From Neotamlana nanhaiensis (lineage in GTDB: Bacteria > Bacteroidota > Bacteroidia > Flavobacteriales > Flavobacteriaceae): a DNA stretch of 64,000 nucleotides. Shown here piece after piece: positions 21,020 to 52,231 of the stretch. The position numbers and the translations under genes are program-made. Where the stretch lies: positions 248,001-312,000 of the forward strand of contig NZ_JTDV01000010.1 of the NCBI RefSeq assembly GCF_000943555.1, given 5' to 3'. Numbering within the stretch: the first letter of the stretch is position 1; every line of letters begins with the position of its first letter. The notes below the pieces were generated by a model, which had not been told where the DNA came from, did no database searches, and was given only the letters and a program-made list of their open reading frames with translations.

Positions 21020-22309
21020 TTACCCGCGCCTATCAATAACCAAAATAGGTTTCCTGCTCATTTTCGGGAAGCGGAGTTTTTCAATCGTTTCTTTTGGATG
21101 AAGCTCTATATTTGGCGTTACCCGAAGTTTGGCTCTAAAATGATCTTTTATAGCGTTTAAAAAATCTTTGGAATTGTTTGTCGTCGCTATTTTTAAGCAA
21201 ATTTCGTCGGTACCAATACTATTATGGCTAATCTCGATAACATAACTTTCCACCTCGGCAAAATCGTTTAGAATATTATCCATAGCCGGCGGATATAACG
21301 TGGTGCCTTTATATTTTATCATTTGCTTTTTACGACCAACCACAGGTCCAAGTCGTAAGGTAGTTCGACCACAAGGGCAAGCTTCGGTGTGGGCTTTTAC
21401 CATATCACCAGTTTTAAAACGCAATAGCGGCATGCCTTCAACCCCTAAAGTTGTAATTGTTAATTCACCTACTTCGTCTTTTGGTACAGGTTGGTTATTT
21501 TCATCTAAAATTTCAGTAATTATTAATTCTGGATGCTGATGCCCTCCTTGATTGTGTTCGCACTCGGTAAAGGCTGTATTCATTTCGGTAGAAGCATAAG
21601 TTGAATACAAATTAATATCCCATTTTGCGGTAATTTTTTCGGCTAAGGTGTTTAATGTAAAATCTTGATTTCTTAAAGATTCACCAATACAAATTGCGCC
21701 TTTTACACCAGATTTATTAACATCGATACCATGCGATTCGGCATATTCAATAAGTTTTAGCAAAAACGATGGCACCACAATTAAATAAGTAGGATTAAAT
21801 TTTAAAATAGAATCCCATTGCAATTCTGGCACGCCAGCACCAACACGAATTATGGTGGCTCCTAATTTTCTAACACCTAAAAAATAGGCTAAACCTGCCA
21901 TAAATCGGCGGTCTATGGTTGTCATAAGTTGCACCACATCGCCTTCTTTCACGCCTGCGCAAGCAAATGAAATAGCCTCGTTATATGCTAAACGATCTAA
22001 ATCTTTATCGGTTAAACCAAAAATTACAGGATCGCCTAAAGTTCCCGAAGTCGTCACATAATCGCGAATTTTATGCTTAGGCACGCATAAAAAATCGTCG
22101 TTGTTTTTTTGTAAATCATCCTTTGTGGTAAAGGGAATTAGGCTTAAGTCTTCAAGAGTTTTTATAGTTGAAACATCAATATTATTTTCTGAAAAAACGC
22201 GTTGATAATACGCTGAATTTTCACTTAAATACGCTAATAATGATGCTAATTTTTCTTCTTGAAAAACTTTTATGTCTTGCAAAGATGCTTTCTCTATGTC
22301 GGGAATCAT
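21020..22309 (-). CDS. PaaK-like adenylate-forming ligase of the flexirubin cluster
   Basis: This 429-residue member of the phenylacetate-CoA ligase branch of AMP-forming enzymes has the phosphate-binding loop TTSGTLGDPVIFGLT near 85, STYASTEMNTAFTECE near 240, LRFKTGDMVKAHTEACPCGRTTLRLG near 305 and GRKKQMIKYKGTTLYPPAMDN near 335. The C-terminal domain ends with KLRFPKMSRKPILVIDRRG. It would activate an aryl acid as adenylate; the tyrosine ammonia-lyase at the far end of the cluster makes a 4-hydroxycinnamate-type acid, so loading this starter onto an acyl carrier protein is the likely task. It is the last gene of the 31-gene block and abuts its upstream neighbour. Confidence 0.85.
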   Translation of the reverse strand: MIPDIEKASLQDIKVFQEEKLASLLAYLSENSAYYQRVFSENNIDVSTIKTLEDLSLIPFTTKDDLQKNNDDFLCVPKHKIRDYVTTSGTLGDPVIFGLTDKDLDRLAYNEAISFACAGVKEGDVVQLMTTIDRRFMAGLAYFLGVRKLGATIIRVGAGVPELQWDSILKFNPTYLIVVPSFLLKLIEYAESHGIDVNKSGVKGAICIGESLRNQDFTLNTLAEKITAKWDINLYSTYASTEMNTAFTECEHNQGGHQHPELIITEILDENNQPVPKDEVGELTITTLGVEGMPLLRFKTGDMVKAHTEACPCGRTTLRLGPVVGRKKQMIKYKGTTLYPPAMDNILNDFAEVESYVIEISHNSIGTDEICLKIATTNNSKDFLNAIKDHFRAKLRVTPNIELHPKETIEKLRFPKMSRKPILVIDRRG

Positions 22310-23980
22310 TTACAACTTCCTTTTTATTTTTTTAATATATGCTTTTAAATTTTCACGATCTGGCACCGTAGTTACTTCTTTGGTTAAAGCTGCTTCAAAA
22401 TTAAGCAATGCCGCGGTATAATATTTCTTTTCGTAAAAATACTTTCCTACCAAATAATAGGCTTCCCAAAAATTAGGATTTAATTGTTTAAAAGCTTCTA
22501 ATTTGTTGGTATTAATGTGTGTGTTATTTGAAATAGCTTCGGATAGCTTTCTACTTTCAACACGATAATTTTCATAATTTTTATAAGCTTCAGAATACAA
22601 AAACGGATCGGTTTCTATATTCAATGCTGAAGTTTGATTCGATTTAAAATCACCTTCCGCTTTTGCGAAAACATCATTTAAATTATAAGCCACAAATTCG
22701 CCTAAATTATATGGGTTTGAAGACACCCAAACCAAACCTTGCTCAGGTTTAAAAACCACACCATGATGCGCCAACAACTGATTTAAAGCTTTTTCGTTAC
22801 CATAACCTAAGGCCAAATCGTGCAATCCTTCACGATTGCGCAACATAGCCACTGCTTTTTGTGGCGTTATTTTTTCTTCTTCATTTATAAGTTCTTGCAA
22901 GCGCTCGTAACGGTATTGTGAATGGCTATTGTGAATATGTTCTGCATTGCGATCATCGGTTTTATAAGCATCACTTTGAAAATGATTGGTACAAATTAAC
23001 TGATTGGCATTAGGCACTTGATACACCCCAAAGTTTTTAGGCGACACCTCGATAGTTACTGCATTTTTATCGGCGGCGCTTCCTATAAATATAGATTCGG
23101 ACACAAAAACTTGTCGTTTTTTAGCAATCGCCACAGCTTCTTCTATATTTGATGCATATTGCAAAATTTCTCGTGTTAAAATGGAAATAGGCGTTTTGGC
23201 CACTAACGGAATTTTAGACTTACCAGCATTTATAGTAACAGTTAAACCTTTTTCGTTCATCCCAGAAACCACTCCAATCATTCCTGGCCAAGTTACCGAC
23301 ATAAAATTGTAACCACTTTCGGGTTTTACAAAGGCTATTATTTTTTGTTTGGCAAAATCGTCGCCCGCATAAAAATCTAAATTCCGACCAATTAGCATGC
23401 TACCATCGCTTGTTTTATCGCCCCAAACGGCAAACGATGAACAACCAACCAAGGCCAAGTCTTGAAAGGCATGACCAATGTCGTGCGCACCGTGTAAATA
23501 AAGAATGCGCAAATAATCATCGGCAATATAATCGTAATCATCGCCAGCATATTGGGCTAAACCGTAAATTTCGGTTTTAAATTCTTCTGGAATGTGTAAA
23601 TACATTTTGCGATTATACCACGCCATAAGTTTACGTAGTAACTTCTGCTTAAATTTTGATGGCACCATGGTTTCCACCTTTCCTAAAAAATAAGCTTCCT
23701 GTTTGGCAAATAATTCTTGTGTTAAACGCCCCGTTTTTAAACCCAATTGCAACGGATTGCCACTAACCAACAATTCCCATTGCCCTTGCTTATTTTTGGT
23801 AAGAAAGTTATTGTTTAAAGCAAATGTAGAATCGTTTATTGTTGTTCTCTCTGGTATTTCTGAAGAAAACTGAGTAACATCTGGTATATCGTGCAAGGAT
23901 TTTTTAACACCACAAGACACCAGCATTAAAACAGCCAAAGTGCAAAACAATTTATGTACCGACTTAAAAATCAGTTTCAT
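22310..23980 (-). CDS. Lipoprotein with C45 (acyl-CoA:6-APA acyltransferase-like) domain
   Basis: This 556-residue protein has a lipobox LVSC (Cys23), so it should be membrane-anchored outside the cytoplasm. The central domain is an Ntn-hydrolase of peptidase family C45/AAT: GCSSFAVWGDKTSDGSMLIGRNLDFYAG with Cys180 as the expected autoproteolysis nucleophile, then GMIGVVSGMNEKGLTVTINAGKS and TNHFQSD. The last 90 residues resemble a tetratricopeptide-like helical tail (NPNFWEAYYLVGKYFYEKKYYTAALLNFEAAL). Family members form or hydrolyse amide or ester bonds from acyl donors. In a pigment cluster it might attach, trim or transfer the acyl arm outside the inner membrane, which is inference. Confidence 0.82.
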   Translation of the reverse strand: MKLIFKSVHKLFCTLAVLMLVSCGVKKSLHDIPDVTQFSSEIPERTTINDSTFALNNNFLTKNKQGQWELLVSGNPLQLGLKTGRLTQELFAKQEAYFLGKVETMVPSKFKQKLLRKLMAWYNRKMYLHIPEEFKTEIYGLAQYAGDDYDYIADDYLRILYLHGAHDIGHAFQDLALVGCSSFAVWGDKTSDGSMLIGRNLDFYAGDDFAKQKIIAFVKPESGYNFMSVTWPGMIGVVSGMNEKGLTVTINAGKSKIPLVAKTPISILTREILQYASNIEEAVAIAKKRQVFVSESIFIGSAADKNAVTIEVSPKNFGVYQVPNANQLICTNHFQSDAYKTDDRNAEHIHNSHSQYRYERLQELINEEEKITPQKAVAMLRNREGLHDLALGYGNEKALNQLLAHHGVVFKPEQGLVWVSSNPYNLGEFVAYNLNDVFAKAEGDFKSNQTSALNIETDPFLYSEAYKNYENYRVESRKLSEAISNNTHINTNKLEAFKQLNPNFWEAYYLVGKYFYEKKYYTAALLNFEAALTKEVTTVPDRENLKAYIKKIKRKL

Positions 23981-23987
23981 GCCAAAA

Positions 23988-25526
23988 CTACTTTATGGTT
24001 TCCGATACTTTGGTTTCCTTATTAATTTTATCTACCAGATAATCCATTCCTAAAATCTCAGAACAGGTTATTACGCCACCAATAGTAACCCCTAAAATAC
24101 CATGCATATTTAAACTTTGTCCTGTAAAATATAGATTTTTCACCTTAGTTTTTGGGGATACAATAGATTGTAACGGCTTGTTCACATCCTTTACATAACC
24201 GTACATGGACCCGTTGTGACTACCAATATAATCGCGATACGATAGCGGTGTAGATGTATAGTATGATTCAATACAATCGCGAATATTAGGAAACTTTTTC
24301 TCTAATTCATCAATTAATTTTTCGGCTTTTGCTTTTTTAAAAGCTTCGTAACTTTCACCTCTTTCGTTTTTCTCTTTAACGGTATTAAACGTATCGCTCC
24401 AACCTTCAACTTCATCCCAACGCATGTAAGTCATCACCGTTAAACATTCGGCAAAATCGGAGGTGTTTTGGCCCACTCCAAACGATACCATATAACCTTC
24501 TGGCCATGTTTCTTGAGTATAATCTTGCGAATCCCACATTTTTTCTACGTCGCGAAAATGATAGAAATTATGATTATAATATTTAAATGAATTTTCTTTA
24601 AAAACCACATATAAACTAAACGGTGCTATGGTATTTTCAATAGTGTTAATACGGTTTACATAGGCTTTTTTTAAAGGGCTATCTTCCCCTAACATTTGCA
24701 AGGTTAATTTAGGCTCGATATTAGATATAAACTTATCGCCTCGAATTACTTTTCCATCGGCACAAACCACCTGAGTTACTTTCCCATTTTCTGAACTAAA
24801 CTCGGTAACCTTTTGGTTTTTATAAGCTTCACCTCCATGCTTTTTTAATTGCTTAATAAGTTGTTTTGTTATTTGGCTTCCACCATTAACACAACGATAA
24901 GCACTTTCTATATACGAGTTAACCGAAAGCGCATGCACATACAACGGCGTGTCTTCTTTATAACCAGCATACAAATAATTTGTTCCTGCCAAAACCCCTT
25001 TTAACTTGCTATTATTGGTTAAAGAATCAATAAATCCTTTTGCCGATTCTTGAAAAATTTCAATATCGTAAGGGTTGCCTTTTTTTACCGAATACAGCGG
25101 AAACTTTTGGCAAACTTCAATCATTTTATTGCAATAGGTTACAATAGCGTCCTTTTCGCTGGGAAACTTTTCAATAAGTTTTTCTCTAAAGTTATCATAA
25201 CCTTGAGCGTATGGAAATTCGCCTTCATAATTATCGAAAGTCACGACATCAAAACCATCAACATCTAAACGTTTTAGCTTTAAATGATCCATAATCCCGA
25301 TATAGGAAAAATAAGTGTGTAGATTTTGACCTTCATCTAACCCGCCAATATAATGTACGCCCGTATCGAAAATGGTTTTATCTCTTACAAAAGTTTGTAA
25401 GTTACCCCCGTATTGTTGGTTTTTTTCTAAAACACATACGCTATAGCCTTCTTTTGCTAAAATTATGGCACTCACAAGACCTCCAAGTCCGCTTCCTACA
25501 ATAACAACGTCGTAGTGCTCCTTCAT
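23988..25526 (-). CDS. Phytoene-desaturase/retinol-saturase-like FAD oxidoreductase
   Basis: This 512-residue flavoprotein starts with the ADP-binding motif VVIVGSGLGGLVSAIILAKEGYSVCVLEKNQQYGGN (6-41). It ends with the second FAD-contacting motif LYFTGQSLNMHGILGVTIGGVITCSEIL, as in CrtI-type desaturases and all-trans-retinol 13,14-reductases. Substrates of the family are polyenes. In this cluster it could adjust the oxidation level of the aryl-polyene chain or the resorcinol; no carotenoid genes are nearby, so carotenoid desaturation is less likely. It lies between the MMPL gene (9 bases upstream) and the C45 gene (7 bases downstream). Confidence 0.85.
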   Translation of the reverse strand: MKEHYDVVIVGSGLGGLVSAIILAKEGYSVCVLEKNQQYGGNLQTFVRDKTIFDTGVHYIGGLDEGQNLHTYFSYIGIMDHLKLKRLDVDGFDVVTFDNYEGEFPYAQGYDNFREKLIEKFPSEKDAIVTYCNKMIEVCQKFPLYSVKKGNPYDIEIFQESAKGFIDSLTNNSKLKGVLAGTNYLYAGYKEDTPLYVHALSVNSYIESAYRCVNGGSQITKQLIKQLKKHGGEAYKNQKVTEFSSENGKVTQVVCADGKVIRGDKFISNIEPKLTLQMLGEDSPLKKAYVNRINTIENTIAPFSLYVVFKENSFKYYNHNFYHFRDVEKMWDSQDYTQETWPEGYMVSFGVGQNTSDFAECLTVMTYMRWDEVEGWSDTFNTVKEKNERGESYEAFKKAKAEKLIDELEKKFPNIRDCIESYYTSTPLSYRDYIGSHNGSMYGYVKDVNKPLQSIVSPKTKVKNLYFTGQSLNMHGILGVTIGGVITCSEILGMDYLVDKINKETKVSETIK

Positions 25527-25535
25527 TAAATCGTT

Positions 25536-28500
25536 TTATTTTTTTGTTAAAATAGCTAGATATGTTTCTTCGTGCTGCACCGCAAATTGATGCTCTGAAA
25601 CAAACTTTTGGGTTAAAATACAACTTTCTTTGAGTAGCACCAATGTTTTAATGTTTTCTGTTGTTTTTAATTGATTTGCGACTATTTTTGATTCAATTAT
25701 TAATACATCAGCGGTATTTATTTTTTCCTCAAACCCTTCAAAACCATCATTATAATTTAGTTTATAATGTGTATTAGTCAAGTATGAATTTTTAAGGATC
25801 TTCCGAACACTTAAGTCTTCAATAAAGCTTTCAATTTTTAATGCAGGATTATTTAAAGCCATCAAGAAATCTAATTGCCCGTTTTTTGTTGAAATATGAC
25901 AAACTTGTTTGCTGTCATGAAGCCGTTTCAAAATTTTATAATACTGATTTTTATACTGCTGCAAATCAGTTTTTACCCAATTATACAGCGCATCGCCTTT
26001 ATACCTAAAATCGCATAACACTAAATGATGAAAGTAAGTGGCATCTTCATTTTCTTTTCTAAACTTTAAAAATTCAGCTTTAAAATGTTTGCTAATAAGT
26101 TTAGTTCTGGCTCTAGTTGTTTCTCCAAAAGACACATCGTTAGCTTTAACACGATCGAGCACTTTTAGGGTAATTTTTCCTTTCCTAATTATAAAATCAC
26201 CTTTGGAATTTACTTCAGAATTCCCATGAATTAAAATAGGCAAAACATCTAAATTAAACTGTTCTGCCAAATAAAATGCGCCTTTATGAAACCTGTTAAT
26301 TTTATTTGTAAACGAACGTGAGCCCTCTGGAAACACCATAATACTATAACCTTGAGCTACTTTTTCTTGTAATTGTTCCAGTCCGTTTTCAATACCATCG
26401 GACACTGGGAAATATCCAGCAAGTTTCATGGCTCGTGCATAAACTGGCGAATTATAAACCCAATCGTTTACCAAAAAAATAATTTTGGGTGAGACCATTT
26501 CAATCGTCAATGTATCTAAAAAAGAGGTGTGATTTGCAATAATGACTGCTGGTTTTTCAAACGTTTCATCAACATCATTAATGATTGTTTTGGGCACAAA
26601 CGGATTAGATTTTAAAACTGAGGTTAAAAATTTAGAGACAATTTTATGAAACCTTAGTAAATAAGCGTCCTTTTTTGAAGGTCGTATTTTTATAAAAATA
26701 GTGGCTACTATTGATAATAAAACCGTTCCCAAACCGTAATACGTAAACGACATGGTACTATGCAACAACTCGAACACCGTTTTTGGTCGCGATGTTTTAC
26801 TGCCTATTAATAATTTAAACAATAGAGGTTGAATGGTAAAGGCCATAACCATAGCCGATAATATTCCTATTATAGACACCACCGAAATGGTATATAGCGC
26901 CGGATGTTTTGCAAAAATAAGCACACCAACACCTAAAATAGTAGTGATAACCGATAAAACAATTGAGGTTTTATGGGTATTTAAAACGCGTTCGCCAGTG
27001 CGGTATTCATGCAGTAAACCATTGGTTACAAATATGCCATAATCGATGCCTAAACCAAAAATAAAGGAGGAAATTATAATATTAAAAATGTTGAATTTTA
27101 TCCCCAAAAGTCCCATTAAACCTACAGTTGCAAACCATGTTAATGCAATAGGAAGCGCCGTAATTAAAGTTAATGATGCACTGCGAAACGAAATGAACAA
27201 AATAACAATTACAACAAGCAATGAATACCAAACCAAACGATTAAAATCTGATTTTAAATTTCCTAAAAACTGCTCGTTAATTCCTTTTCGATCTATAATA
27301 ACAACGCCTTCTGTGTTTTTAAACTGAGTTGAAAAAGCTTCAATATTTGCTTCATCGAGCTTTACTAAAGATGAAACGGTATAAAAATTATCGCTTTCGC
27401 TGATGAAATCTTCAATATTTAAAACTTTTAAAACCGAATACGATGCAGGTTTAATATATTGAAACTCCTTATTAATTAAATTATAAAATTGCTGATGTGT
27501 TTCGGGCTTAAATCCTAATATTTTTCCGCTTTTAATTAAGTTGGTTTTTACTGTATCTTTTTCATTTTCACTCCAGAATTGTTGCCATTGTAGTATTTTT
27601 TCTTGCTGATGTGATTCGGATTGAACCAATGCGCCTACCGAACTAAAATCGATAATTTCACCGCTAGATTTTAATTGATTCAAAACATTAAAAACCAAAT
27701 CGTTTACTTGTAAAGCCTCTTGCAACGTATTTCCATGAGCGGCCACGTAAACCGATTTTGATGCCACATTTGTAATACGCTCTAAATTGCTTTGAGCTTG
27801 CATAAGTTTAGGTGGCTCGAAGTTTAACTTGCTTAAATCTTTATTAAAACCAACCTGCTTATACGTAAATATAGAGATTAATAAAACCAAGGCAATGCCT
27901 ATAAAAACAGCTTTCTTTTTATGAAAATTTATACTTGCAAACGCATCAATAAATGTATTTGAATAGGATTTTGAAGCTGACTTTTTATATAAATGCGGTA
28001 TTAAAACTAAGGCAAAAACCGACGAACCTAAAGCACTAACACCTGCAAATAAACCTAAATCTTGCAGCGCTTGTGAATCTAAAAACAACAAACAGAAAAA
28101 CGCCAATGAGGTGGTGACGCTACTCATTAAAACAGGTTTTGTAATGTCGTTGTATAAGGTTTTTATGTTGTTATTATCTCGAATATGAGTAAGAATATGC
28201 AAGGCATAATCGAGTGTTACGCCCAACAACACCGAACCAATACCTAATGATATAGCCGAAATTTTTTCGCGTAACACAAACAATACGGTGATGGCTAAAA
28301 GTCCGCCAAAAATAGTTGGCACAAACAAAATTATAGGCAACAATAACTTGCGATAAAACAAAATGAGAATCACCAAAAGTATGGTTAACGTAATGCTAAC
28401 TGTAAATTGTATATCGTGTTTTATTTGTTTAGCGTTTTCAACAGCTACCAAGGCACCTCCAAAATAATCGACACTTACTTTGTTTTTAAAATTGCTATTT

Positions 28501-29216
28501 AATGTACTAGCTAAAGCATATAAATGCTTCGAAAGTTGTGCGTTTTGTGCTGTTTCACTCGACTTTAATTTTGGTGATATAAACAGTAAAATGTGTTTTT
28601 TATCTTTCGTTAGCAAATAACCATTGGAAAGGTTTAAATCATCTCCTAAGGTTAAACTTTGCAGTTTTTTTAAACCTAAAAACGATAATCCCAAAGGATC
28701 TTTTACTATGGTTTTCTTTAAAACAATCCCCGATGGCGACACTAAGGTTTTATAATTATTTTTGGTAATCGCATCAATACTATCTTTACTGAGTTTGTTT
28801 TTTATATGCTCATAATCTTCAGTATCTAAAAAAAGAGGCAAGTTGTTGTATACAAAATCGAGTGTGTTTACGGTGGCATCATCGTCAATTTTTCCTTGAA
28901 TATTTTCAATATATTGGCTTGATGACGCGTTTAAACTATCAATAAACACATCAGCAAAATGGGTTAAATCGTTTACACTTCCGTTTTCCTCTAAAGCAAT
29001 ATTGACAATTATTTTATCGGCAAACTTCATCGATTTAAACACTTTACTTGCGTTTTCGTTTCCTTTATTTATAGGAATAAGTTTGGTAATATCTTCTTCA
29101 AATTCAATTTTAGTCGCAACAAAAATCAAACTAAAAAGCAACAGTAAAAACCCGAAAACACTTAGCGTTTTCCGATTTTGAATAGCCTTGTATATACCGA
29201 AGAAAATCTTAGCCAT
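25536..29216 (-). CDS. MMPL/RND exporter fused to a PlsC-type acyltransferase domain
   Basis: This 1226-residue protein has three parts. Residues 1 to about 830 form an MMPL (RND-type) transporter with two halves, each of one helix, an extracytoplasmic loop and five helices. The first helix is near 18-34; LGVTLDYALHILTHIRDN and FGLGIDYGIFVTNGLLHEYRTGE are the conserved helix-4 motifs. About 840-1065 is a lysophospholipid-acyltransferase domain with NHTSFLD (HX4D, near 892) and FPEGSRSFTNKI (near 960). The last 160 residues are unclear and look like a degraded methyltransferase fold. MMPL proteins export lipids and polyenes, and aryl-polyene clusters carry one. Fusion to an acyltransferase suggests coupling of acyl transfer to export. 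Confidence 0.88.
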   Translation of the reverse strand: MAKIFFGIYKAIQNRKTLSVFGFLLLLFSLIFVATKIEFEEDITKLIPINKGNENASKVFKSMKFADKIIVNIALEENGSVNDLTHFADVFIDSLNASSSQYIENIQGKIDDDATVNTLDFVYNNLPLFLDTEDYEHIKNKLSKDSIDAITKNNYKTLVSPSGIVLKKTIVKDPLGLSFLGLKKLQSLTLGDDLNLSNGYLLTKDKKHILLFISPKLKSSETAQNAQLSKHLYALASTLNSNFKNKVSVDYFGGALVAVENAKQIKHDIQFTVSITLTILLVILILFYRKLLLPIILFVPTIFGGLLAITVLFVLREKISAISLGIGSVLLGVTLDYALHILTHIRDNNNIKTLYNDITKPVLMSSVTTSLAFFCLLFLDSQALQDLGLFAGVSALGSSVFALVLIPHLYKKSASKSYSNTFIDAFASINFHKKKAVFIGIALVLLISIFTYKQVGFNKDLSKLNFEPPKLMQAQSNLERITNVASKSVYVAAHGNTLQEALQVNDLVFNVLNQLKSSGEIIDFSSVGALVQSESHQQEKILQWQQFWSENEKDTVKTNLIKSGKILGFKPETHQQFYNLINKEFQYIKPASYSVLKVLNIEDFISESDNFYTVSSLVKLDEANIEAFSTQFKNTEGVVIIDRKGINEQFLGNLKSDFNRLVWYSLLVVIVILFISFRSASLTLITALPIALTWFATVGLMGLLGIKFNIFNIIISSFIFGLGIDYGIFVTNGLLHEYRTGERVLNTHKTSIVLSVITTILGVGVLIFAKHPALYTISVVSIIGILSAMVMAFTIQPLLFKLLIGSKTSRPKTVFELLHSTMSFTYYGLGTVLLSIVATIFIKIRPSKKDAYLLRFHKIVSKFLTSVLKSNPFVPKTIINDVDETFEKPAVIIANHTSFLDTLTIEMVSPKIIFLVNDWVYNSPVYARAMKLAGYFPVSDGIENGLEQLQEKVAQGYSIMVFPEGSRSFTNKINRFHKGAFYLAEQFNLDVLPILIHGNSEVNSKGDFIIRKGKITLKVLDRVKANDVSFGETTRARTKLISKHFKAEFLKFRKENEDATYFHHLVLCDFRYKGDALYNWVKTDLQQYKNQYYKILKRLHDSKQVCHISTKNGQLDFLMALNNPALKIESFIEDLSVRKILKNSYLTNTHYKLNYNDGFEGFEEKINTADVLIIESKIVANQLKTTENIKTLVLLKESCILTQKFVSEHQFAVQHEETYLAILTKK

Positions 29217-36148: not shown

Positions 36149-36406
36149 TTATTTTGTGCGGTGTTCTGCAATGTAAGCAGACATGGTGTTAATCGATTCA
36201 AAAATAGCACGACCTTGTTTTGGGTCGGTTAATTTTATGCCATAAGTTTTATCGAGCATCACAATAAGCTCTAACGCATCAATAGAATCTAAACCTAATC
36301 CGTCTCCAAAAAGCATATCGTCATCGCCAATTTCGGCAGGTGTTATATCTTCTAAATTTAGTTGTTCTACAAGGCTTTCTTTCAATTCTTGTTTTAAAGC
36401 GTCCAT
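36149..36406 (-). CDS. Acyl carrier protein 1 of the flexirubin cluster
   Basis: This 85-residue acidic helical protein has the phosphopantetheine site GDGLGLDSIDALELIVMLDKTYGI, with Ser41 of DSID as attachment residue. It carries growing chains during polyene or resorcinol synthesis. The ATG overlaps the end of the 208-residue ketosynthase-like gene by 13 bases. No phosphopantetheinyl transferase gene is visible in the cluster, so activation must rely on an enzyme encoded elsewhere. Confidence 0.93.
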   Translation of the reverse strand: MDALKQELKESLVEQLNLEDITPAEIGDDDMLFGDGLGLDSIDALELIVMLDKTYGIKLTDPKQGRAIFESINTMSAYIAEHRTK

Positions 36407-44030: not shown

Positions 44031-44966
44031 TTATTTAATCTGCTCTAATAATGCAACCGAAGCATAATACTCCTTTTGCCTTTTTATTTTTTGGATATTT
44101 AGTAAATAAGTTAGCAAAAATAACACAAAAACTACTGGGGAAATAATCCAAATGGCAATTAACAAATAAACATTAAACATTTTAAGTAATATTTTACGTT
44201 TTTTGGTATTGGCTTCACTTGATTTTGAGATAAAAGTAGACCATTTAGAAAAAATGATATTGGCTTTTCTATCTACAGTTATTAAAAAGGGTTTTATTTT
44301 TACTGCCTCGTGCTTTAATAAGTTTTCTTGAAGGGAATCGAATTTATTTTGAATGAGGTGTGATTTTATAATAGGGCCAAATTTGGTAGCATTATCGATA
44401 TCGGTTTGACTGACACCTGGTTTCGGAAAAATTCCTAAATAGCGCTTTTTCTTTCCAGAAAACATCCAACGAACTATGGTAATTACGCTAATATGGTTTA
44501 CGTGCCTATCAACTAAAGCTATGTTTCCTACCAAATTGGCTTGCAAATTTTTTAGGTGCTTTTTCACCTTTTCCTGCGCCATAATCCACATGTTTCTAGA
44601 ACCGCTTACCGTTACTACGTTTGCGTTTTTAAATAGTGTTTTTGCGTAATCGGATTTTAAAAACGACGATACTGGCAACGATGGTGTTAAATACCACACT
44701 TGATAACCTAAAATAACTAAATCGTATTTTTTGTTTAAAATATCCTGAGGCACAGGTTTAACAGGCTGTTTTTTTTGCAAAAAAGTATCGGGAAAAACCC
44801 CAAAAAAATCTTCTTTTTTCCAAGGAAACGGAAAGTTTTTTTCGAGTTGCATTTCATGAAAGTTAAGTTCTACATCATCTCCTTGTGCCAAACTAGAAAC
44901 AATATTATTTACTATTTCGGTAAGTTGACCAGATTGAGAATAATGCAATACGAGAACTTGCTTCAT
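44031..44966 (-). CDS. darA: DarA: dialkylresorcinol aromatising/condensing enzyme, flavodoxin-like
   Basis: This 311-residue protein has a flavodoxin-like N-terminal half: VLVLHYSQSGQLTEIVNNIVSSL (FMN phosphate loop), VILGYQVWYLTPSLPVSSFL near 93 and VVTVSGSRNMWIMAQEKVKKHL near 125. A C-terminal hydrophobic segment (about 270-297, FNVYLLIAIWIISPVVFVLFLLTYLL) anchors it to the membrane. DarA converts the cyclohexanedione made by DarB into the aromatic dialkylresorcinol. It is the first gene after the largest gap inside the block (95 bases), so a separate promoter for the resorcinol genes is possible. Confidence 0.92.
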   Translation of the reverse strand: MKQVLVLHYSQSGQLTEIVNNIVSSLAQGDDVELNFHEMQLEKNFPFPWKKEDFFGVFPDTFLQKKQPVKPVPQDILNKKYDLVILGYQVWYLTPSLPVSSFLKSDYAKTLFKNANVVTVSGSRNMWIMAQEKVKKHLKNLQANLVGNIALVDRHVNHISVITIVRWMFSGKKKRYLGIFPKPGVSQTDIDNATKFGPIIKSHLIQNKFDSLQENLLKHEAVKIKPFLITVDRKANIIFSKWSTFISKSSEANTKKRKILLKMFNVYLLIAIWIISPVVFVLFLLTYLLNIQKIKRQKEYYASVALLEQIK

Positions 44967-45061: not shown

Positions 45062-45943
45062 TTAACGCAGTTTCTCCCAAAAGTCGAAATAATTAAACCA
45101 TTGTAATGGGTATTTTTTAAGCATCCAAGTAAGGCTTTCGGTATAATCGTTTAAAAGAGATTCTACATCGCGATGCTTTGCTTGCGATTGTCTGGCATAT
45201 AAATGATAATGCAAATTTTTCTCTTTCATTACATAAACAAACAAAACAGGCACGCGTAAGCGTGAGGCCAACATAAAAGGTCCTGCCGGAAATTTTGCCT
45301 TTTCGCCAAGAAAATCTTTTTCTAAAAATTTGGTATTTTGGGTGTAACGATCGCCAGTTATACAAACAATTTCGTTTCTAGCCAATGCCGCATTTATTTC
45401 GAATATGTGCGACAAATCATCTTTTAAAATTATAAGATTGATGTTAGATTTAGTAGTTACACGTTCTAAATACTCTTTTATAGCCGTGTGTTCTTGATTT
45501 GTGGTAAGTAAACTAATAGAAGCCGATTCATCTAAATCTCCAAAAAAGTGTTCGGCAATTTCAAAATTACCTAGGTGAGCACTTATTAAAATACCGCCTT
45601 TTTTATTTTTTAAAGCTTGGTTTATTAAATGAATTCCATCGAACTCGTAAGTGAATTTTTTACGCAAGCCTGATGAAATAGCTACTTTATCAATAATAGT
45701 TTGCCCAAAAACAAAGTAACTATTGTATACATTTTTAAAGCTTTTAAATTTTGAAAATCCTTGCCGCTTATGTAAATAGTAAAAAATAGCCTTAAAGCTA
45801 TCCTTTGCAAATAAAACGAAATAAAAGGAAACAAAATAAAGCACAAAATAAGCTGCCTTAACACCTAGTTTTTTAATACAGAATACAAAAATTTTGTATC
45901 CTAAAACGGTTCCTCTGGATTTACCTTTCCATTCGGCAGCCAT
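45062..45943 (-). CDS. LpxL/HtrB-like lysophospholipid or lipid A acyltransferase
   Basis: This 293-residue membrane-associated acyltransferase has an N-terminal helix pair and HX4D-type motif ISAHLGNFEIAEHF (about 135-148), GDRYTQNTKFLEKDFLGEKAKFPAGPFMLASRLRVPVLFVYVM (around 215-260) and QWFNYFDFWEKL at the end. LpxL relatives transfer acyl groups from acyl-ACP to lipid acceptors, and aryl-polyene clusters contain one or two such enzymes. It may attach the polyene acyl chain to a membrane lipid or take part in ester formation. It lies 18 bases after the ACP gene. Confidence 0.88.
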   Translation of the reverse strand: MAAEWKGKSRGTVLGYKIFVFCIKKLGVKAAYFVLYFVSFYFVLFAKDSFKAIFYYLHKRQGFSKFKSFKNVYNSYFVFGQTIIDKVAISSGLRKKFTYEFDGIHLINQALKNKKGGILISAHLGNFEIAEHFFGDLDESASISLLTTNQEHTAIKEYLERVTTKSNINLIILKDDLSHIFEINAALARNEIVCITGDRYTQNTKFLEKDFLGEKAKFPAGPFMLASRLRVPVLFVYVMKEKNLHYHLYARQSQAKHRDVESLLNDYTESLTWMLKKYPLQWFNYFDFWEKLR

Positions 45944-45961: not shown

Positions 45962-46204
45962 TTAGTTAAGTTTACGCTCAATTAAATCGTAAAAATCTTG
46001 AAGTACTTTAACGTTAACAAAGTCTTCGCCTACCAATTTCACACCAAAATTAGCTTCAACCGACACGACTAGATCTACAAAATCTAAACTATCTAAATCT
46101 AGAGTTTCTTTTAAATCGGCATCCGGCGAAATATCGTCGCTTTCAACTTCAAATTCATCTATAAGGAAGTTGTCTATTTTTTCAATAATAACCTCTTTTG
46201 TCAT
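45962..46204 (-). CDS. Acyl carrier protein 2 of the flexirubin cluster
   Basis: This 80-residue acidic protein is read from ATG 46204; a GTG directly before it (46207) would add one residue. The attachment site is ETLDLDSLDFVDLVVSVEANFGVKL, with Ser39 of DSLD. It lies 7 bases after the ketosynthase gene and ahead of the LpxL-like gene, and likely serves the starter or extension steps of the aryl-polyene arm. Its helix II differs from ACP 1, so the two ACPs may have different partners. Confidence 0.92.
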   Translation of the reverse strand: MTKEVIIEKIDNFLIDEFEVESDDISPDADLKETLDLDSLDFVDLVVSVEANFGVKLVGEDFVNVKVLQDFYDLIERKLN

Positions 46205-46211
46205 CACGCCA

Positions 46212-47429
46212 CTATATTTTTTTTATTATTAATGCTGAATTGGTTCCTCCGAAACCAAAAGAATTGGACAAAAATACATTAATTTTTTTATCTATGGTTT
46301 TACTCACCAAATTTAATTTTTTAGCATCTTCGTCGGGCGTTTCCAAATTAATATTAGGTGCTACAAAACCATGCTGCATCATTAACATAGAGTAAATTAT
46401 CTCGCTTGCTCCAGCCATCCAACACTCGTGCCCCGTCATCGATTTTGTTGAACTTACCGCTGGACCATTATCGCCAAAAACATCGTAAATAGCCTTGGCT
46501 TCGTTAGCATCACCAACAGGCGTTGATGTAGCATGTGCATTAACATAATCGATATCGCTAGCTTGGATTCCTGCCTGCTTTAAAGCCATTTTCATGGCCG
46601 AACTTGGCCCAACAACATTTGGTGTAGAAATATGCTCGCCGTTTGATGAAAAACCATAACCAATAACTTCTCCTAAAATTGGAGCGCCACGTTTTACAGC
46701 AGACTCGTATGATTCTAAAATTACAGTTGCAGCACCACCACTTGGCACTAAGCCATCGCGATTAGCATCAAAAGGTCGTGAAGCTTTAGCTGGATTTTCT
46801 GTATTTACCGAAAACACTCCTAAACCGTCGAAACTGGACATAACGTACGGATTAATTTCTTGGGCTCCTCCACAAATAACACAATCTTGTAAACCACTTT
46901 TAATTAATTGATACGCCATACCTATGGCATGCGAACCACTAGCACAAGCGGCACTAATTGTAAAATTAATTCCAGTTAATTTAAAAATGGTAGACAAATT
47001 CATGGTTACTGAAGAGTTCATACCTTTAAAAATAGCTCCAGAACCAACTAAAGTGGTATCTTTTTTTTCACGAACTTTATCAACCGATTCTATTACAGAT
47101 TTGGTTGTACTATCGTTTCCGTAAAGGATACCAACTTGATTTGCATCAATAAAATCTTGATCTATTTTAGCATTTTTAAACGCTTCAACGGTCGCCATAT
47201 AGGCGTATTCGCCTTCTTCACCAATACTAATGCGTTGTTTACGCGACAAAACACCTTTTAAATTAGGCTTGCTAACCATTCCTGTTAAAGGCGAACGGTA
47301 ACCAAATCCAATGCGTGCTTCATCTATAACAATTCCTGATTTACCTTGATAAAGCGATTCTTTTACTTCGTTTAAGTTCTCACCAATACACGAGTAAATC
47401 CCCATTCCTGTAATTACAACTCTGCTCAT
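46212..47429 (-). CDS. Beta-ketoacyl-ACP synthase (FabB/FabF-like) of the flexirubin cluster
   Basis: This 405-residue ketosynthase has a complete active site: INFTISAACASGSHAIGMAY (Cys162), VNAHATSTPVGDANEA (first His; the usual HGT is HAT) and TKSMTGHECWMAGASE (second His), ending NSFGFGGTNSALIIKK. FabB-like features such as GHECWMAGASE are seen. It follows fabG by 9 bases and precedes ACP 2, so these three form a reducing elongation module near the tyrosine ammonia-lyase gene. Confidence 0.92.
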   Translation of the reverse strand: MSRVVITGMGIYSCIGENLNEVKESLYQGKSGIVIDEARIGFGYRSPLTGMVSKPNLKGVLSRKQRISIGEEGEYAYMATVEAFKNAKIDQDFIDANQVGILYGNDSTTKSVIESVDKVREKKDTTLVGSGAIFKGMNSSVTMNLSTIFKLTGINFTISAACASGSHAIGMAYQLIKSGLQDCVICGGAQEINPYVMSSFDGLGVFSVNTENPAKASRPFDANRDGLVPSGGAATVILESYESAVKRGAPILGEVIGYGFSSNGEHISTPNVVGPSSAMKMALKQAGIQASDIDYVNAHATSTPVGDANEAKAIYDVFGDNGPAVSSTKSMTGHECWMAGASEIIYSMLMMQHGFVAPNINLETPDEDAKKLNLVSKTIDKKINVFLSNSFGFGGTNSALIIKKI

Positions 47430-47438: not shown

Positions 47439-48170
47439 TTACGAGTAAATTCCGCCATTAATATTAATAACCTCGCCTGTAATATAAGATGCTTTTTTAG
47501 AAATTAAAAACGAAACGGCATGAGCGACTTCTTCTGGCTCGCCAAAACGATTTATTGGAATTAAGTTTTTAAGCTCTTTTTCGTCGAGTTCGGCAGTCAT
47601 ATCGGACTTTATAAAACCAGGCGCCACAGCATTAACCGTAATTTTACGTTTTGCAACCTCTTGCGATAAGGCTTTTGTTGCACCTATTAATGCCGCCTTA
47701 GCTGCCGAATAATTAGTTTGCCCTGGTGTACCTTTTACCCCAGAAACGGAAGCTATATTTACAATACGCCCGTAACGGTTACGCAGTAATTTTTGAATAA
47801 AAAAGTTGGTTACGTTATAAAACCCGCTTAATGAGGTGTTTATAACATTATTCCAATCTTCGGCAGGCATCCACATAAACAACCCGTCTTTGGTTATACC
47901 AGCGTTATTTACAATAACTTCGACTACCGCGTCTGGGTTATTTTCTTGCCATGTTGATAAAACCGATTGTACTTGTTGCGCATCGGCTACATTAAATTGT
48001 AAAATTTCACCAGTATTTCCTTCGGCTTCTACAAATTGCAACGTTTCTTTTGCTGCTGCTTCGTTGTTGTTATAATTTATAAGAATATGATACTCTGAAT
48101 CTTTTGCTAACTGAACACACACAGCTTTTCCTATACCTCTAGATCCTCCAGTTATTAGGGCACACTTCAT
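47439..48170 (-). CDS. fabG: 3-oxoacyl-ACP reductase (FabG-like)
   Basis: This 243-residue SDR has TGGSRGIGKAV (7-17), NNAGITKDGLFMWMPAEDW, catalytic Ser in NIASVSGVKG and YSAAKAALIG (Tyr and Lys). The C-terminal YITGEVININGGIYS is typical for FabG. It reduces ACP-bound 3-ketoacyl chains with NADPH before dehydration by the hot-dog enzymes. Being inside the pigment operon, it is a dedicated ApeQ-like copy; the housekeeping fabG would be elsewhere. Confidence 0.92.
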   Translation of the reverse strand: MKCALITGGSRGIGKAVCVQLAKDSEYHILINYNNNEAAAKETLQFVEAEGNTGEILQFNVADAQQVQSVLSTWQENNPDAVVEVIVNNAGITKDGLFMWMPAEDWNNVINTSLSGFYNVTNFFIQKLLRNRYGRIVNIASVSGVKGTPGQTNYSAAKAALIGATKALSQEVAKRKITVNAVAPGFIKSDMTAELDEKELKNLIPINRFGEPEEVAHAVSFLISKKASYITGEVININGGIYS

Positions 48171-48207: not shown

Positions 48208-49335
48208 TTATTCGAAAAGTTCTAAGTTTTGGTACCACGTATTATTTAATACCTCGCCTTTAGTATTTAAAAAGGCCCACTCCTTTTTGTATTTTACACG
48301 CACTAAACCATCGATGAAGCCTTTTTCGGTTTTTACGCCAAAAAACATACCAAAATTACCTGCGGTAATTCCGTATTTTTCTTCTATCACCAATTTACCA
48401 TCGGTGTTAATAAAGCCCCATTCTTTTTTTGTTTTTACTGGTGCTAAGCCATCTTCACTAAACACCTCAGCATCTTTATATTGCGCTTTAATTACCTCTT
48501 CGCCCTTTAGGTTAATATAGCCCCAAAGTTTATTTTCGTAATATGGCGCTAAGCCTTTTGTAAAACCTCTAACTCTTTCGTATTTTGGCTCGATTACCCA
48601 TTCGCCATTGGCATTAATAAAACCAACTTTTTCACCTTTTTTGGCATAAGTTATATCGCCATTAAGCGTGAAATCCCAAATTTTTATAGCACCCTCAACA
48701 TGAGTAAAAGTTTTGTCTTTTATTAAACCCCAAACACCTCCTTTTTTAGCTACAATTATACCATTGTAAAGATTTCCAATTTCTTCGTATTCAATTTTTA
48801 TATACTCGTTTCCGGTTTTATCGATTAACCCCCATTTTTCATTTTTTTGAACTCTAGAATACCCATTATAAAAATCGAATGCCTTGGTATAATCTTTAGG
48901 AATAACTGTTTCTCCCTTCTTATTAATAAACCCAACGTTATCAACCGTTCGAACTACAGCTAAATCTTCAGAGAAATCGTAAACTTTATCGGTTACAACA
49001 TCGCTTAAAATTTTGTTTCCAGTTTCATCTATATAATACCAAGAAAGGCCATCGTTTACAATTGCAATACCGCATTGAAACGCCTTTGTTTTTTTTAAAG
49101 TTGGTTTAATTACCCACTCGCCGCTTCGGTTTATATAACCCCAAAGTTTATCGTTAGCCATGGCTTGTGCATAATCGCCAGAAAAACTTTTAGCGTTTAG
49201 AAATTGAGGCTTAATTACCCAATCGCCAGATTTATTAATATACCCAAATTTTCCGTCTACTCTTGCTAAAGCTAGTTCTTGAGCAAAACATAAACTTAAA
49301 CTAAAAAAAGCAACTACAAAAAACAGTTTTTTCAT
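48208..49335 (-). CDS. Exported WG-repeat (beta-propeller-like) protein
   Basis: This 375-residue protein is read from ATG 49335 (MKKLFFVVAFFSLSLCFAQ, a signal peptide); a TTG at 49347 would add four residues. The mature part is made of about a dozen WG/KWG repeats of 20-25 residues (GKFGYINKSGDWVIKPQF, KLWGYINRSGEWVIKPTL, VGFINKKGETVIPKDY and so on). WG repeats are common in Bacteroidetes and usually mediate protein or ligand binding outside the cell. It lies 6 bases after the tyrosine ammonia-lyase gene and 37 bases before fabG, so it is co-transcribed with the pigment genes. A direct role is not known. Confidence 0.85.
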   Translation of the reverse strand: MKKLFFVVAFFSLSLCFAQELALARVDGKFGYINKSGDWVIKPQFLNAKSFSGDYAQAMANDKLWGYINRSGEWVIKPTLKKTKAFQCGIAIVNDGLSWYYIDETGNKILSDVVTDKVYDFSEDLAVVRTVDNVGFINKKGETVIPKDYTKAFDFYNGYSRVQKNEKWGLIDKTGNEYIKIEYEEIGNLYNGIIVAKKGGVWGLIKDKTFTHVEGAIKIWDFTLNGDITYAKKGEKVGFINANGEWVIEPKYERVRGFTKGLAPYYENKLWGYINLKGEEVIKAQYKDAEVFSEDGLAPVKTKKEWGFINTDGKLVIEEKYGITAGNFGMFFGVKTEKGFIDGLVRVKYKKEWAFLNTKGEVLNNTWYQNLELFE

Positions 49336-49353
49336 AACTAGAAACAATTAGAT

Positions 49354-50877
49354 TTATTTAATTTTCATTAAATATTGTTTCACCTTATTTACGTAAGGAT
49401 ACATCACAATATCTTCTGTAAATATAGGAACTATTTCTCGTATATCGTCGTAAACTTTTTTGGTTTTTGAAGAAACTTTATCTTTAACTTCTAGATATTC
49501 AATAGCTTGAACAATGGTGATAAGTTCGATAGCTAAAACCTCGAACGCATTCTCTATAACCTTCTTTGTTATTAAAGCCGCATTGGTTCCCATACTAACA
49601 ATATCTTGATTATCGTTGTTATTAGGAATACTATGCACATACATTGGATTTGAAAGCGTTTGATTTTCGGCCGTAGTTGAAGTCGCTGTAAATTGCACCC
49701 CTTGCATCCCAAAATTTAGGCCTAATTTACCTAAATTAACAAATGGCGGTAACATATCATTTAATCTTGCATTTAATAGGTAATTTAACTGTCTTTCGCT
49801 CAACATACTCAATTTAGTAACAGCAATTTTAAGCTTATCCATTTCGAGCGACACGTAATCGCCGTGGAAATTTCCGCCGTGATATACATGCTTACGTTTT
49901 ACATCGACAATAGGATTATCGTTTGCCGAATTAACCTCATCAACTAGGATCTCTTCAACACTATTTAAAGTATCTAAAACAGGCCCTAATATTTGCGGCA
50001 CGCAGCGTAACGAATAATACTCTTGTACTTTTTCTTTAAAAACCGAAACGTTTTCGTTTTTTGAGTACAAATAATGCTCGCGTTTACGCGTTAATTGACT
50101 ATCGGATAAATGTTCGCGCATAAGTTCGGCAATATCTTGTTGCCCTTTATGACGCTTGGTTTCGTTTAGCTCTAAACTTAAATGATCGTCGTATGCTTTC
50201 ACAATTTCGTTTATTGCAGACGAACAAACGATCATGTTATTCATTAATTCACGCGTATAAATAACATTTACAAGCCCAATACCTGTCATTGCCGAAGTAC
50301 CATTCATTAATGCTAAACCCTCACGTAGCTCTACCGAAATTGGTTTAAGGTTTTCGGCCTTAAAAACATCGGCAGTATTGGTACGTTCTCCTTTATAAAA
50401 CACTTCGCCTTCACCTATTAAAACCAAAGCCAAATGCGCTAATTGCACTAAATCGCCACTAGCACCAACGCTACCATGCTCAAAAATTACAGGCGTAATA
50501 TCTCTATTTATTAACTCTTGCATTAATATAATAGCCGATTTATGTATACCTGAATTCCCTTTAGATAATGTGCTTAATCTCGCTAACATAATAGCTCGCA
50601 CATACATAGGTGGCAAAGGTTGCCCAACACCAGACGCATGGCTTCTAATAAGATTGTATTGTAGCTTTATGCGTTGAGAGTCTTCAATTTTATATTGTGC
50701 CATAGGCCCAAAACCAGTATTTACACCGTAAATAACCTTATCTTGAGAAAAATTTACCAAAAATTTAAAACTCTCTTCTACCTTTTGTATTGTAGCATCA
50801 TCTACTACAAAAGGTTCATCTTTAAAAATAATTTTAAAGAAATCGTCTATTTCTAGACTTCCTTTATAGGTTAGCAT
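49354..50877 (-). CDS. Tyrosine ammonia-lyase of the HAL/PAL family
   Basis: This 507-residue lyase has catalytic Tyr50 in VIYGVNTGFGPMAQ and the MIO prosthetic-group triad Ala139-Ser140-Gly141 in GSVGASGDLVQLAHL. NDNPIVDVKRKHVYHGGNFHGDYVS and NNNDNQDIVSMGTNAA follow. It strongly resembles, from memory, the Flavobacterium johnsoniae tyrosine ammonia-lyase of the flexirubin cluster. The substrate-selectivity dipeptide is Ser79-His80 (IRSHASGVG), as in HAL, rather than the His-Leu of Rhodobacter TAL. It should deaminate tyrosine to 4-hydroxycinnamate, the aryl starter. It is the first gene of the minus-strand block, divergent from the FAD oxidoreductase over 100 bases. Confidence 0.92.
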   Translation of the reverse strand: MLTYKGSLEIDDFFKIIFKDEPFVVDDATIQKVEESFKFLVNFSQDKVIYGVNTGFGPMAQYKIEDSQRIKLQYNLIRSHASGVGQPLPPMYVRAIMLARLSTLSKGNSGIHKSAIILMQELINRDITPVIFEHGSVGASGDLVQLAHLALVLIGEGEVFYKGERTNTADVFKAENLKPISVELREGLALMNGTSAMTGIGLVNVIYTRELMNNMIVCSSAINEIVKAYDDHLSLELNETKRHKGQQDIAELMREHLSDSQLTRKREHYLYSKNENVSVFKEKVQEYYSLRCVPQILGPVLDTLNSVEEILVDEVNSANDNPIVDVKRKHVYHGGNFHGDYVSLEMDKLKIAVTKLSMLSERQLNYLLNARLNDMLPPFVNLGKLGLNFGMQGVQFTATSTTAENQTLSNPMYVHSIPNNNDNQDIVSMGTNAALITKKVIENAFEVLAIELITIVQAIEYLEVKDKVSSKTKKVYDDIREIVPIFTEDIVMYPYVNKVKQYLMKIK

Positions 50878-50977: not shown

Positions 50978-52231
50978 ATGGATATTCAAAATGAATGTGT
51001 TGACGTATTAATTATTGGGGCTGGCCCATCCGGGATTGTAGCCGCAGCCTACCTTAATAATCAAGGCCATAACGTAAAAGTTATTGAAAAATCGAAGTTC
51101 CCACGATTTGTTATTGGCGAAAGTTTACTACCACGTTGTATGGATCATTTTGAAGAAGTAGGACTACTTGACTGCTTAAAAGCTGAACATTTTGAAGTAA
51201 AATCTGGCGCCCGTTTTTTAAGTAAAGATGTGGTTTGTAATTTCGATTTTAGCCAAAAACACACCCCTGGATGGGATTGGACCTGGCAAGTACCACGTGC
51301 CGATTTTGATAATGCCCTTGCTACCGAATTAATAAACAAAGGGGTCGATATTATTTTTGAACACGAAGTTACTAACGTTATTTTTAACCCAGACGGAAGC
51401 TCAGTTACGTCTGTAAAAAACAATATTGGCGATAATTTTAAAATTGATGCTAAATTTATAATTGATTCTTCTGGATACGGACGTGTTTTACCAAGATTAC
51501 TTGGTTTAGACAAACCATCGTCTATCCCTACGCACTCCTCAATTTTCACTCATGTTAAAGATGTAAAACGCCCTGAAGGAAAGGAAGGTACATTAATTAC
51601 TTTTGATGTTATTGATAAAGACACTTGGTTTTGGGTTATTCCATTTTCTAACGGCATAACAAGTATTGGTTTTGTGGGAGAAAATAGCTTATTCGACTCT
51701 TATGAAGGCAACACAACCGAGGTTTTAAATAAGATGTTAAAATTATCGAACTACTACCATGATAGATTTTGCGATTTAAACTACGAATTTGTACCTGTAC
51801 ACATAAAAAACTACTCGAAAGCAGTAACCAAGCTCTGCGGCAAAGGCTTTGCTTTAACTGGTAATAGTGCCGAATTTTTAGACCCTGTATTTTCTTCGGG
51901 TGTAACATTTGCTACCGAATCGGGTTTAAAAGCAGCCAAACTAATTTCGAAAGAATTACAAGGCGTAACTGTAAATTGGGACACCGACTATGCTGGCTAC
52001 ATTGCCGAAGGCGTAAATGTATTTGCCTCGTACGTAAAAGAATGGTATACCGGCAACTTACAGACTCTATTTTTTCATCGTCCAGAAAACTTAGAAGTAA
52101 AAAAACAAATTTGTGCGGTTCTTGCGGGTTATGTTTGGGATAAAACTAATCCGTTTGTAAAAAAACACAACCGCATTATCGCAAGTATGGCGCATGTAAT
52201 TAGCATGCAAAAAGAAAAAACGACCAAATAA
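50978..52231 (+). CDS. FAD-dependent oxidoreductase, tryptophan-halogenase family-like
   Basis: This 417-residue flavoprotein has the FAD motif VLIIGAGPSGIVAAAYL (10-26), KFPRFVIGESLLPRCMDHFEEVG (40-62), the conserved Lys75 in FEVKSGARF and the halogenase-type W-x-W-x-I-P motif as WFWVIP (217-222). GFALTGNSAEFLDPVFSSGVTFA near 300 binds FAD. These marks fit flavin-dependent halogenases, but related hydroxylases also share much of them. It is divergent from the tyrosine ammonia-lyase gene, so it probably belongs to the flexirubin cluster as aryl halogenase or hydroxylase. Halogenated flexirubins are known. A separate flavin reductase would be needed and is not seen here. Confidence 0.85.
   Translation: MDIQNECVDVLIIGAGPSGIVAAAYLNNQGHNVKVIEKSKFPRFVIGESLLPRCMDHFEEVGLLDCLKAEHFEVKSGARFLSKDVVCNFDFSQKHTPGWDWTWQVPRADFDNALATELINKGVDIIFEHEVTNVIFNPDGSSVTSVKNNIGDNFKIDAKFIIDSSGYGRVLPRLLGLDKPSSIPTHSSIFTHVKDVKRPEGKEGTLITFDVIDKDTWFWVIPFSNGITSIGFVGENSLFDSYEGNTTEVLNKMLKLSNYYHDRFCDLNYEFVPVHIKNYSKAVTKLCGKGFALTGNSAEFLDPVFSSGVTFATESGLKAAKLISKELQGVTVNWDTDYAGYIAEGVNVFASYVKEWYTGNLQTLFFHRPENLEVKKQICAVLAGYVWDKTNPFVKKHNRIIASMAHVISMQKEKTTK

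Follow-up and report, generated by a model that had tools for sequence, protein, structure and literature searches.

Flexirubins are yellow-orange pigments of the outer membrane of Bacteroidota. Two of their clusters, MIBiG entries BGC0000838 and BGC0000839, are cited in a survey that counted 268 flexirubin clusters in 252 strains (PMC9248904). BGC0000838, from Flavobacterium johnsoniae UW101, is by description a single locus that holds both dialkylresorcinol (DAR) and polyene genes and includes darB, lolA2, and lolB2 (PMC3992019, PMC11885536, PMC9248904). Its size is given as 37 kb (PMC3992019), and a synteny map of it appeared in a paper in which another carrier of DarA/DarB tested positive for flexirubin (PMC5932025). 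The genes lolA2 and lolB2 have been placed within the flexirubin operon, where they are suggested to serve pigment or lipoprotein transport (PMC11885536). For Chitinophaga pinensis, an flxA-flxY cluster (BGC0000839) was reported and the activities of FlxA and FlxY were shown (PMC3992019). Here we describe a related locus of Neotamlana nanhaiensis, located in a stretch of 64,000 nucleotides (positions 248,001 to 312,000 of contig NZ_JTDV01000010.1, assembly GCF_000943555.1), hereafter the window. It consists of 31 minus-strand genes, numbered 01 to 31, and a divergent plus-strand gene 32 (Table 1).

Like the F. johnsoniae cluster, this is a single locus uniting DAR and polyene genes. It has the same enzymes as C. 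pinensis flxA-flxY, but the dar genes of C. pinensis lie at a separate site (PMC3992019), and Chitinophaga loci have a methyltransferase and a 212-217-aa protein that are both lacking in the window cluster. In Chitinophaga-type clusters the latter protein, which matches no Pfam family and apparently begins with a signal sequence, lies between the counterparts of genes 09 and 15 (L178:11052-11702, L181:15708-16343; L, G, and C numbers are our designations of loci, genomes, and contigs). The xanthomonadin-like arcuflavin cluster of Azoarcus, compared by its gene list, also includes a halogenase, glycosyltransferase, LolA, acyltransferase, exporter, and polysaccharide deacetylase (PMC3949708); its starter enzyme, however, is a chorismatase of the XanB2 type, versus the tyrosine ammonia-lyase of the window cluster.

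Identity of the cluster and its conservation among relatives

Judged from sequence, the locus is very probably (about 0.93) a flexirubin biosynthesis and export cluster. All 32 proteins were scanned with Pfam and 30 with NCBIfam, the two ABC proteins (genes 13 and 14) being left out of the latter. Eight proteins, FlxA, FlxB, FlxY, DarB, DarG, DarH, LolA2, and LolB2, scored over the curated flexirubin/Dar cut-offs of NCBIfam, and the triad A139-S140-G141 of FlxA was invariant in 14 of 14 sequences. Both scans bore out the gene contents named in a preliminary description of this DNA (the lyase, ligase, acyl carrier proteins, ketosynthase-family and hot-dog proteins, DarB, and exporters, among others). 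Its claim of a DarA/DarB pair stood for DarB, recognized by NF053539; gene 07, placed as DarA by position only, had no Pfam match, and its only NCBIfam match was to flavodoxin (E = 0.0019), far below the cut-off. The putative DarA identity thus leans on the position beside DarB and on the placement in relatives, which weighs against the flexirubin assignment.

Thirty regions were fetched from relatives (17 of the same family, 10 of a second family, f5, the G151 region, and two with a weak DarH homologue), and the window proteins were mapped onto each. Genes 01, 03-23, and 25-31 had identical order in all 17 same-family clusters, and because this core order is shared, a chance origin is excluded. 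The complete flexirubin-type cluster proposed earlier was therefore upheld by the eight curated models together with synteny, and a gene-order comparison, of the kind then suggested, gave a common core. As for the members described as lacking a clear role, the 136-aa protein is DarG, the C45, NodB, and GT2 genes were each conserved (17/17), and the WG gene (02) is accessory (16/17), gene 24 being found in 13 of the 17. DarH, the BtrH-like neighbor of DarG, had gone unnamed; both already are curated families. Gene 32 stood divergently beside FlxA in 16 same-family clusters and at the opposite end in one (G197). An extra CrtD-like gene was seen between genes 06 and 07 in three of these 17 clusters (G177, G220, and G275; L088-L091, L098-L099).

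In eight of the 10 f5 regions, the genes lay in two blocks of opposing strand, in some cases truncated by the end of the fetched sequence, and the other two (G256 and G168) had part of the genes only; a full WG gene was found in none of the 10, and gene 24 was seen in one. The G151 region carried the DAR block only, and G038 and a second G241 locus had no cluster, only a weak homologue of DarH. Of 395 genomes of the phylum, 33 had FlxA at E ≤ 1e-220 (at least 741 bits), a cut-off placed at a gap below which the next match had 361 bits. DarB was found at E ≤ 1e-60 in 33 of the 390 of these genomes that were searched (among which the membership of G672 is not established), and this list includes 31 of the 33 FlxA-positive genomes. 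The cluster is thus a further member of the published family, itself ordinary, and one more case in the family counted in 252 strains (PMC9248904).

FlxA would convert tyrosine to 4-coumarate and FlxY would form the CoA thioester, the activities demonstrated in C. pinensis being transferred to the window proteins because these are equivalog matches. The aryl polyene would then be extended on the two acyl carrier proteins (ACPs) by ketosynthases (KSs) 04, 16, and 19, the KS-like partners 17 and 20, FlxB, and the hot-dog proteins; a pattern search of the sequences of genes 17 and 20 found no KS Cys/His motifs. DarB and DarA, to the latter of which we assume an aromatase/condensing role, would yield the 2,5-dialkylresorcinol, and DarH, a BtrH-type acyltransferase, would most likely transfer the ACP-bound polyenoyl chain onto a hydroxyl of the resorcinol. 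Gene 32 would act as a polyene-side tailoring flavoenzyme, and the pigment would reach the outer membrane via the ABC pair, the MMPL-acyltransferase, LolA2, and LolB2.

The preliminary description held that the whole pathway except phosphopantetheinylation lay in the window. Indeed, no phosphopantetheinyl transferase (PPTase) was matched among the 32 proteins by Pfam, and two PPTase-family genes occur on other contigs of the same genome; however, malonyl-CoA:ACP transacylase likewise had no Pfam match among the 32 and presumably is borrowed. The clusters of G553 and G418 have their own 124-aa PPTase-family gene beside FlxY.

Proposed resorcinol and polyene modules and the ester step

Comparison of the clusters sets the resorcinol module apart from the polyene module and points to DarH. 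In seven split clusters (G418, G553, G151, L225, L248, G567, and G593), genes 07, 08, 11, and 12 form one group. Conversely, the cluster of G131, a genome with FlxA and gene 32 and no DarB match, keeps genes 01, 03, 06, 09, 15-22, 25, 27, 28, and 30-32 plus a methyltransferase, and genes 07, 08, 10-14, and 26 were not found there. These data suggest that DarA, DarB, DarG, and DarH, usually with the ABC pair and often with protein 26, would form a resorcinol module separable from the polyene module. The G131 locus is also without 02, 04, 05, 23, 24, and 29, so that its losses go beyond the resorcinol genes. That most window genes are common to this cluster, and to many methyltransferase-anchored polyene loci, could also mean that the window cluster makes a plain aryl polyene or other polyene lipid without a resorcinol ester; this we consider highly improbable, given that DarB, DarG, DarH, and, by position, DarA are inside the operon here.

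Enzymes of the BtrH type transfer acyl groups that are bound to carrier proteins, and DarH therefore fits polyenoyl transfer to the resorcinol. A different enzyme, FlxW, has been proposed to join polyene and resorcinol (PMC3992019), and by the lettering that we infer FlxW would be gene 30, the C45 lipoprotein, whose VGCxS (Cys180) and N-terminal sCG motifs are conserved (proteins with internal stops were left out of the comparison). The C45 family includes acyltransferases, and gene 30 is retained throughout the same-family clusters. Nevertheless, the G131 cluster still has C45, at 61% identity, and DarH was not found there; thus, C45 is not tied to the resorcinol, whereas DarH apparently is, and DarH stands with DarA and DarB in the seven split clusters. 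Ester formation by C45 instead of DarH therefore seems unlikely, and the comparison favors DarH as the better candidate ester synthase. It counts against DarH that in G345 and G539 the 20 kb fetched on the surroundings of DarB showed none, and that the losses of G131 reach past the resorcinol genes.

Gene 32 is a halogenase-family flavoprotein

The divergent gene 32 had been described as an oxidase; a divergent flavoprotein it is, and the assignment can be refined to the flavin-dependent halogenase family, occurring in our sample in FlxA-positive genomes only. A phmmer search of PDB sequences returned 3nix first (E = 1.4e-138), followed by CndH, CmlS, 8zop, and PltA, all with halogenase-type titles. 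Similarly, the predicted model (mean pLDDT 75.6) matched 3nix best among PDB structures (Z 45.5 over 402 residues, 50% identical), and ranks 2-9 were occupied by halogenases, including PltA (Z 37.5), ChlB4 (37.2), Mpy16, Bmp2, FasV, RadH, and CndH, with hydroxylases coming after them at Z of about 31. The Pfam model Trp_halogenase was over its cut-off, and no NCBIfam halogenase equivalog was. Residues K75, W217-x-W219-x-I221-P222, and F300-x-x-P303-x-x-S306-x-G308, which we take to be the halogenase signature with its catalytic Lys, were invariant in 15 of 15 sequences and occurred in every one of the 79 rows of a wider alignment, in which some genes stand twice and L258 and L261 account for two rows of divergent second copies.

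At E ≤ 1e-60, gene 32 was found in 30 of the 395 genomes, all among the 33 FlxA-positive ones and in none of the other 362; it was missing from FlxA-positive G418, G539, and G672 even at E ≤ 1e-5. Because gene 32 is present in G131, it goes with the polyene and not with the resorcinol. On these sequence grounds, it is a complete halogenase-family enzyme that would belong to the polyene side. The title of 3nix, a Cytophaga hutchinsonii flavoprotein/dehydrogenase, gives no pathway role; C. hutchinsonii has been named as a flexirubin producer (PMC3072089), and the comparison with gene 32 suggests the flexirubin pathway for this crystal structure. On two Verrucomicrobia-labelled contigs (L258:8759-11260 and L261:8757-14084), an FlxA-like lyase match, the methyltransferase, and two distinct homologues of gene 32 lie near one another.

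Chlorination and ring methylation

Flexirubins differ in whether the polyene ring is methylated and/or chlorinated (PMC3992019), and the distribution of gene 32 raises a sharp question, that is, what a halogenase-family enzyme does in producers of a chlorine-free pigment. Chlorination of the phenol ring would be its most likely role in the lineage of the window, to which we give an even chance. Several observations weigh against it. The flexirubin of C. pinensis, from cultures in LB with NaCl, is C43H54O4 and contains no chlorine, and d4-tyrosine feeding led to the loss of one deuterium, explained by methylation (PMC3992019); since methylation accounts for the single deuterium lost, no second substitution of the ring was seen. 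We had predicted that methylated chlorine-free producers would be without gene 32, and this failed: whole-genome searches found gene 32 in 19 of 19 genomes, including 12 of 12 Chitinophaga. These 19 were chosen, mostly as named isolates, from the best 80 of at least 570 loci of a methyltransferase scan, and one of the 12 is a metagenome-assembled genome labelled C. pinensis, whose fetched methyltransferase locus had no polyene genes. C. pinensis DSM 2588 itself was outside the genomes searched; from the gene order of its relatives and the letters and functions called in PMC3992019, J would be the methyltransferase and K gene 32, so that DSM 2588 presumably carries gene 32 as FlxK.

Gene 32 may instead be a non-halogenating flavoenzyme of polyene assembly, catalyzing an oxidation or isomerization, a reading that we put a little short of even odds. 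Its retention in all the Chitinophaga genomes tested despite the chlorine-free pigment of C. pinensis (PMC3992019), and the hydroxylases within its superfamily, are consistent with this. However, the halogenase signature is kept in every aligned row, and polyene clusters can dispense with gene 32, given the three FlxA-positive genomes without it; furthermore, of 51 methyltransferase-anchored polyene loci, 14 did not show it within the sequence fetched.

A Methyltransf_2-type protein was present in the clusters of G553, G593, G539, and G567, beside gene 32 in three; G539 has this methyltransferase and no gene 32. The methyltransferase profile A4 matched in eight of the 33 FlxA-positive genomes, beside cluster genes in all eight, and at E ≤ 1e-20 it found none in the genome of the window (G000). 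As the window cluster has no counterpart of the ring methyltransferase found in others, the pigment of this organism should be non-methylated. A division of clusters into those with a methylase or a halogenase was rejected, as the 33 FlxA-positive genomes comprise 23 with gene 32 only, seven with both, one (G539) with the methyltransferase only, and two (G418 and G672) with neither. In the literature sampled, and within the parts covered of PMC3992019, PMC4828799, PMC11187115, PMC7440613, and PMC9606717, no flexirubin halogenase was assigned. We tentatively propose, as a joint reading, that either chlorinated flexirubins are far more widespread than recorded or the halogenase fold has been kept for a non-halogenating aryl-polyene step, and that DarH, not C45/FlxW, is the ester synthase.

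Protein 26

Protein 26 matched no Pfam or NCBIfam family. Its predicted model (pLDDT 91.1) has helices only, and a fold match was rejected, as none was obtained in the PDB at E ≤ 0.001 (the best, of about 0.07, were to helical proteins); this outcome shows neither a new nor a known fold. Protein 26 adjoins darA in five split clusters (G151, G418, G553, L248, and G567), and it was found in none of the 51 methyltransferase-anchored polyene loci, which reach about 10 kb to each side. From this weak inference, it probably is an exported partner of the resorcinol (DAR)/ABC module. Such a role is at odds with its not being found in DarB-positive G345, G539, and G593, with a family that extends beyond flexirubin (found at E ≤ 1e-8 in 69 of 395 genomes, in each of which up to nine top candidates were scored), and with its presence in G672, which is outside the DarB list, with the limit on membership given above. 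It was likewise not found in L225, and second copies occur in G163, G177, and G192.

Gene arrangement, assembly, and neighboring genes

A mechanical list of the open reading frames (ORFs) of the window confirmed the 31 consecutive co-directional, tightly packed minus-strand genes from 50877 to 21020 that had been reported, with gene 32 divergent from the FlxA end. Counted from this list, 27 of the 30 junctions overlap or are shorter than 20 bases, at least one base is shared at 11, and the three wider gaps measure 95, 37, and 34 bases. The largest overlap, at 38602/38657 (genes 14/15), hinges on a TTG start. No flavobacterial -7 promoter motif was found by a pattern search of the 100-base divergent region.

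Table 1. Genes of the flexirubin-type locus, with positions in the window
Gene	Assignment	Position	Strand	Basis
01	FlxA, tyrosine ammonia-lyase	49354..50877	-	NF053541 equivalog, 889 bits vs cut-off 700
02	WG-repeat protein, hydrophobic N terminus (likely signal peptide)	48208..49347	-	PF14903
03	FlxB ketoreductase (SDR)	47439..48170	-	NF053542 equivalog, 418.8 bits vs 340
04	Ketosynthase (FabB/FabF-like), Cys162	46212..47429	-	PF00109/PF02801, Cys context
05	Acyl carrier protein, DSL motif	45962..46207	-	PF00550
06	LpxL/HtrB-type acyltransferase	45062..45943	-	PF03279
07	Putative DarA, flavodoxin-like	44031..44966	-	Position beside DarB here and in relatives
08	DarB ketosynthase	42894..44027	-	NF053539, 657.7 bits vs 550
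09	FabZ-like hot-dog protein	42462..42890	-	FabZ matches below cut-off
10	FabZ-like hot-dog protein	42022..42462	-	FabZ matches below cut-off
11	DarG (136 aa)	41607..42017	-	NF053545, 199.3 bits vs 170
12	DarH, BtrH-related acyltransferase	40613..41617	-	NF053550, 497.7 bits vs 300; PF14399 + PF16169
13	ABC transporter ATPase	39866..40609	-	PF00005
14	ABC-2 transporter permease	38602..39873	-	PF12698
15	4HBT/YbgC-type thioesterase	38172..38657	-	PF13279; TIGR00051 over cut-off
16	Ketosynthase-family protein, Cys145, two His motifs	37037..38179	-	PF02801/PF00109, residues
17	Short ketosynthase-like protein, 208 aa	36394..37020	-	Partial FabF matches below cut-off
18	Acyl carrier protein	36149..36406	-	PF00550; NF006617 over cut-off
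19	Ketosynthase, Cys161, His292, His328	34938..36140	-	PF00109/PF02801, residues
20	KS-like protein, chain-length-factor-like	33871..34935	-	PF00109 partial
21	NodB-type polysaccharide deacetylase	33113..33877	-	PF01522
22	LolA2, periplasmic carrier	32503..33120	-	NF053544, 228.9 bits vs 125
23	LolB2, outer-membrane lipoprotein	31911..32522	-	NF053540, 252.2 bits vs 60; LVSC in N terminus
24	Outer-membrane beta-barrel-like protein, accessory	31290..31907	-	PF13568
25	FabA-like hot-dog protein	30925..31290	-	PF07977
26	All-helical protein, 164 aa, hydrophobic N terminus	30428..30922	-	Sequence and model
27	GT2-DUF2062 protein	29209..30393	-	PF00535 + PF09835
28	MMPL exporter fused to PlsC-type acyltransferase	25536..29216	-	PF03176 + PF01553
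29	CrtD/carotenoid-isomerase-like FAD oxidoreductase	23988..25526	-	PF01593; TIGR02730/TIGR02733 below cut-off
30	C45 autoproteolytic acyltransferase/hydrolase, lipoprotein-type N terminus (LVSCG)	22310..23980	-	NF040521, 256.1 bits vs 85
31	FlxY, 4-coumarate-CoA ligase	21020..22309	-	NF053551, 744 bits vs 520
32	FAD-dependent-halogenase-family protein at the inferred FlxK position	50978..52231	+	PDB matches, motifs, distribution

The contig that holds the window (C2, 377,790 bases) consists of two identical copies of a 188,895-base unit, joined head to tail, with 0 mismatches. The contamination listed for this genome (4.24%) is close to the 4.7% of the genome repeated in this way, and gene 26 is single-copy in relatives G001-G003. 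The doubling is almost certainly an assembly artefact, by which the genes there would otherwise be counted twice; a second copy of the cluster was therefore rejected, and the cluster is to be counted once.

Next to the FlxY end, an 80-aa ORF (20704-20946, minus strand) covers just the initial, P-loop part of an AAA/SMC-type ATPase and had no match in the 30 regions of relatives. It looks like a truncated gene between the cluster and a tmRNA gene (19944-20338, plus strand), whose tag reads GENNYALAA.

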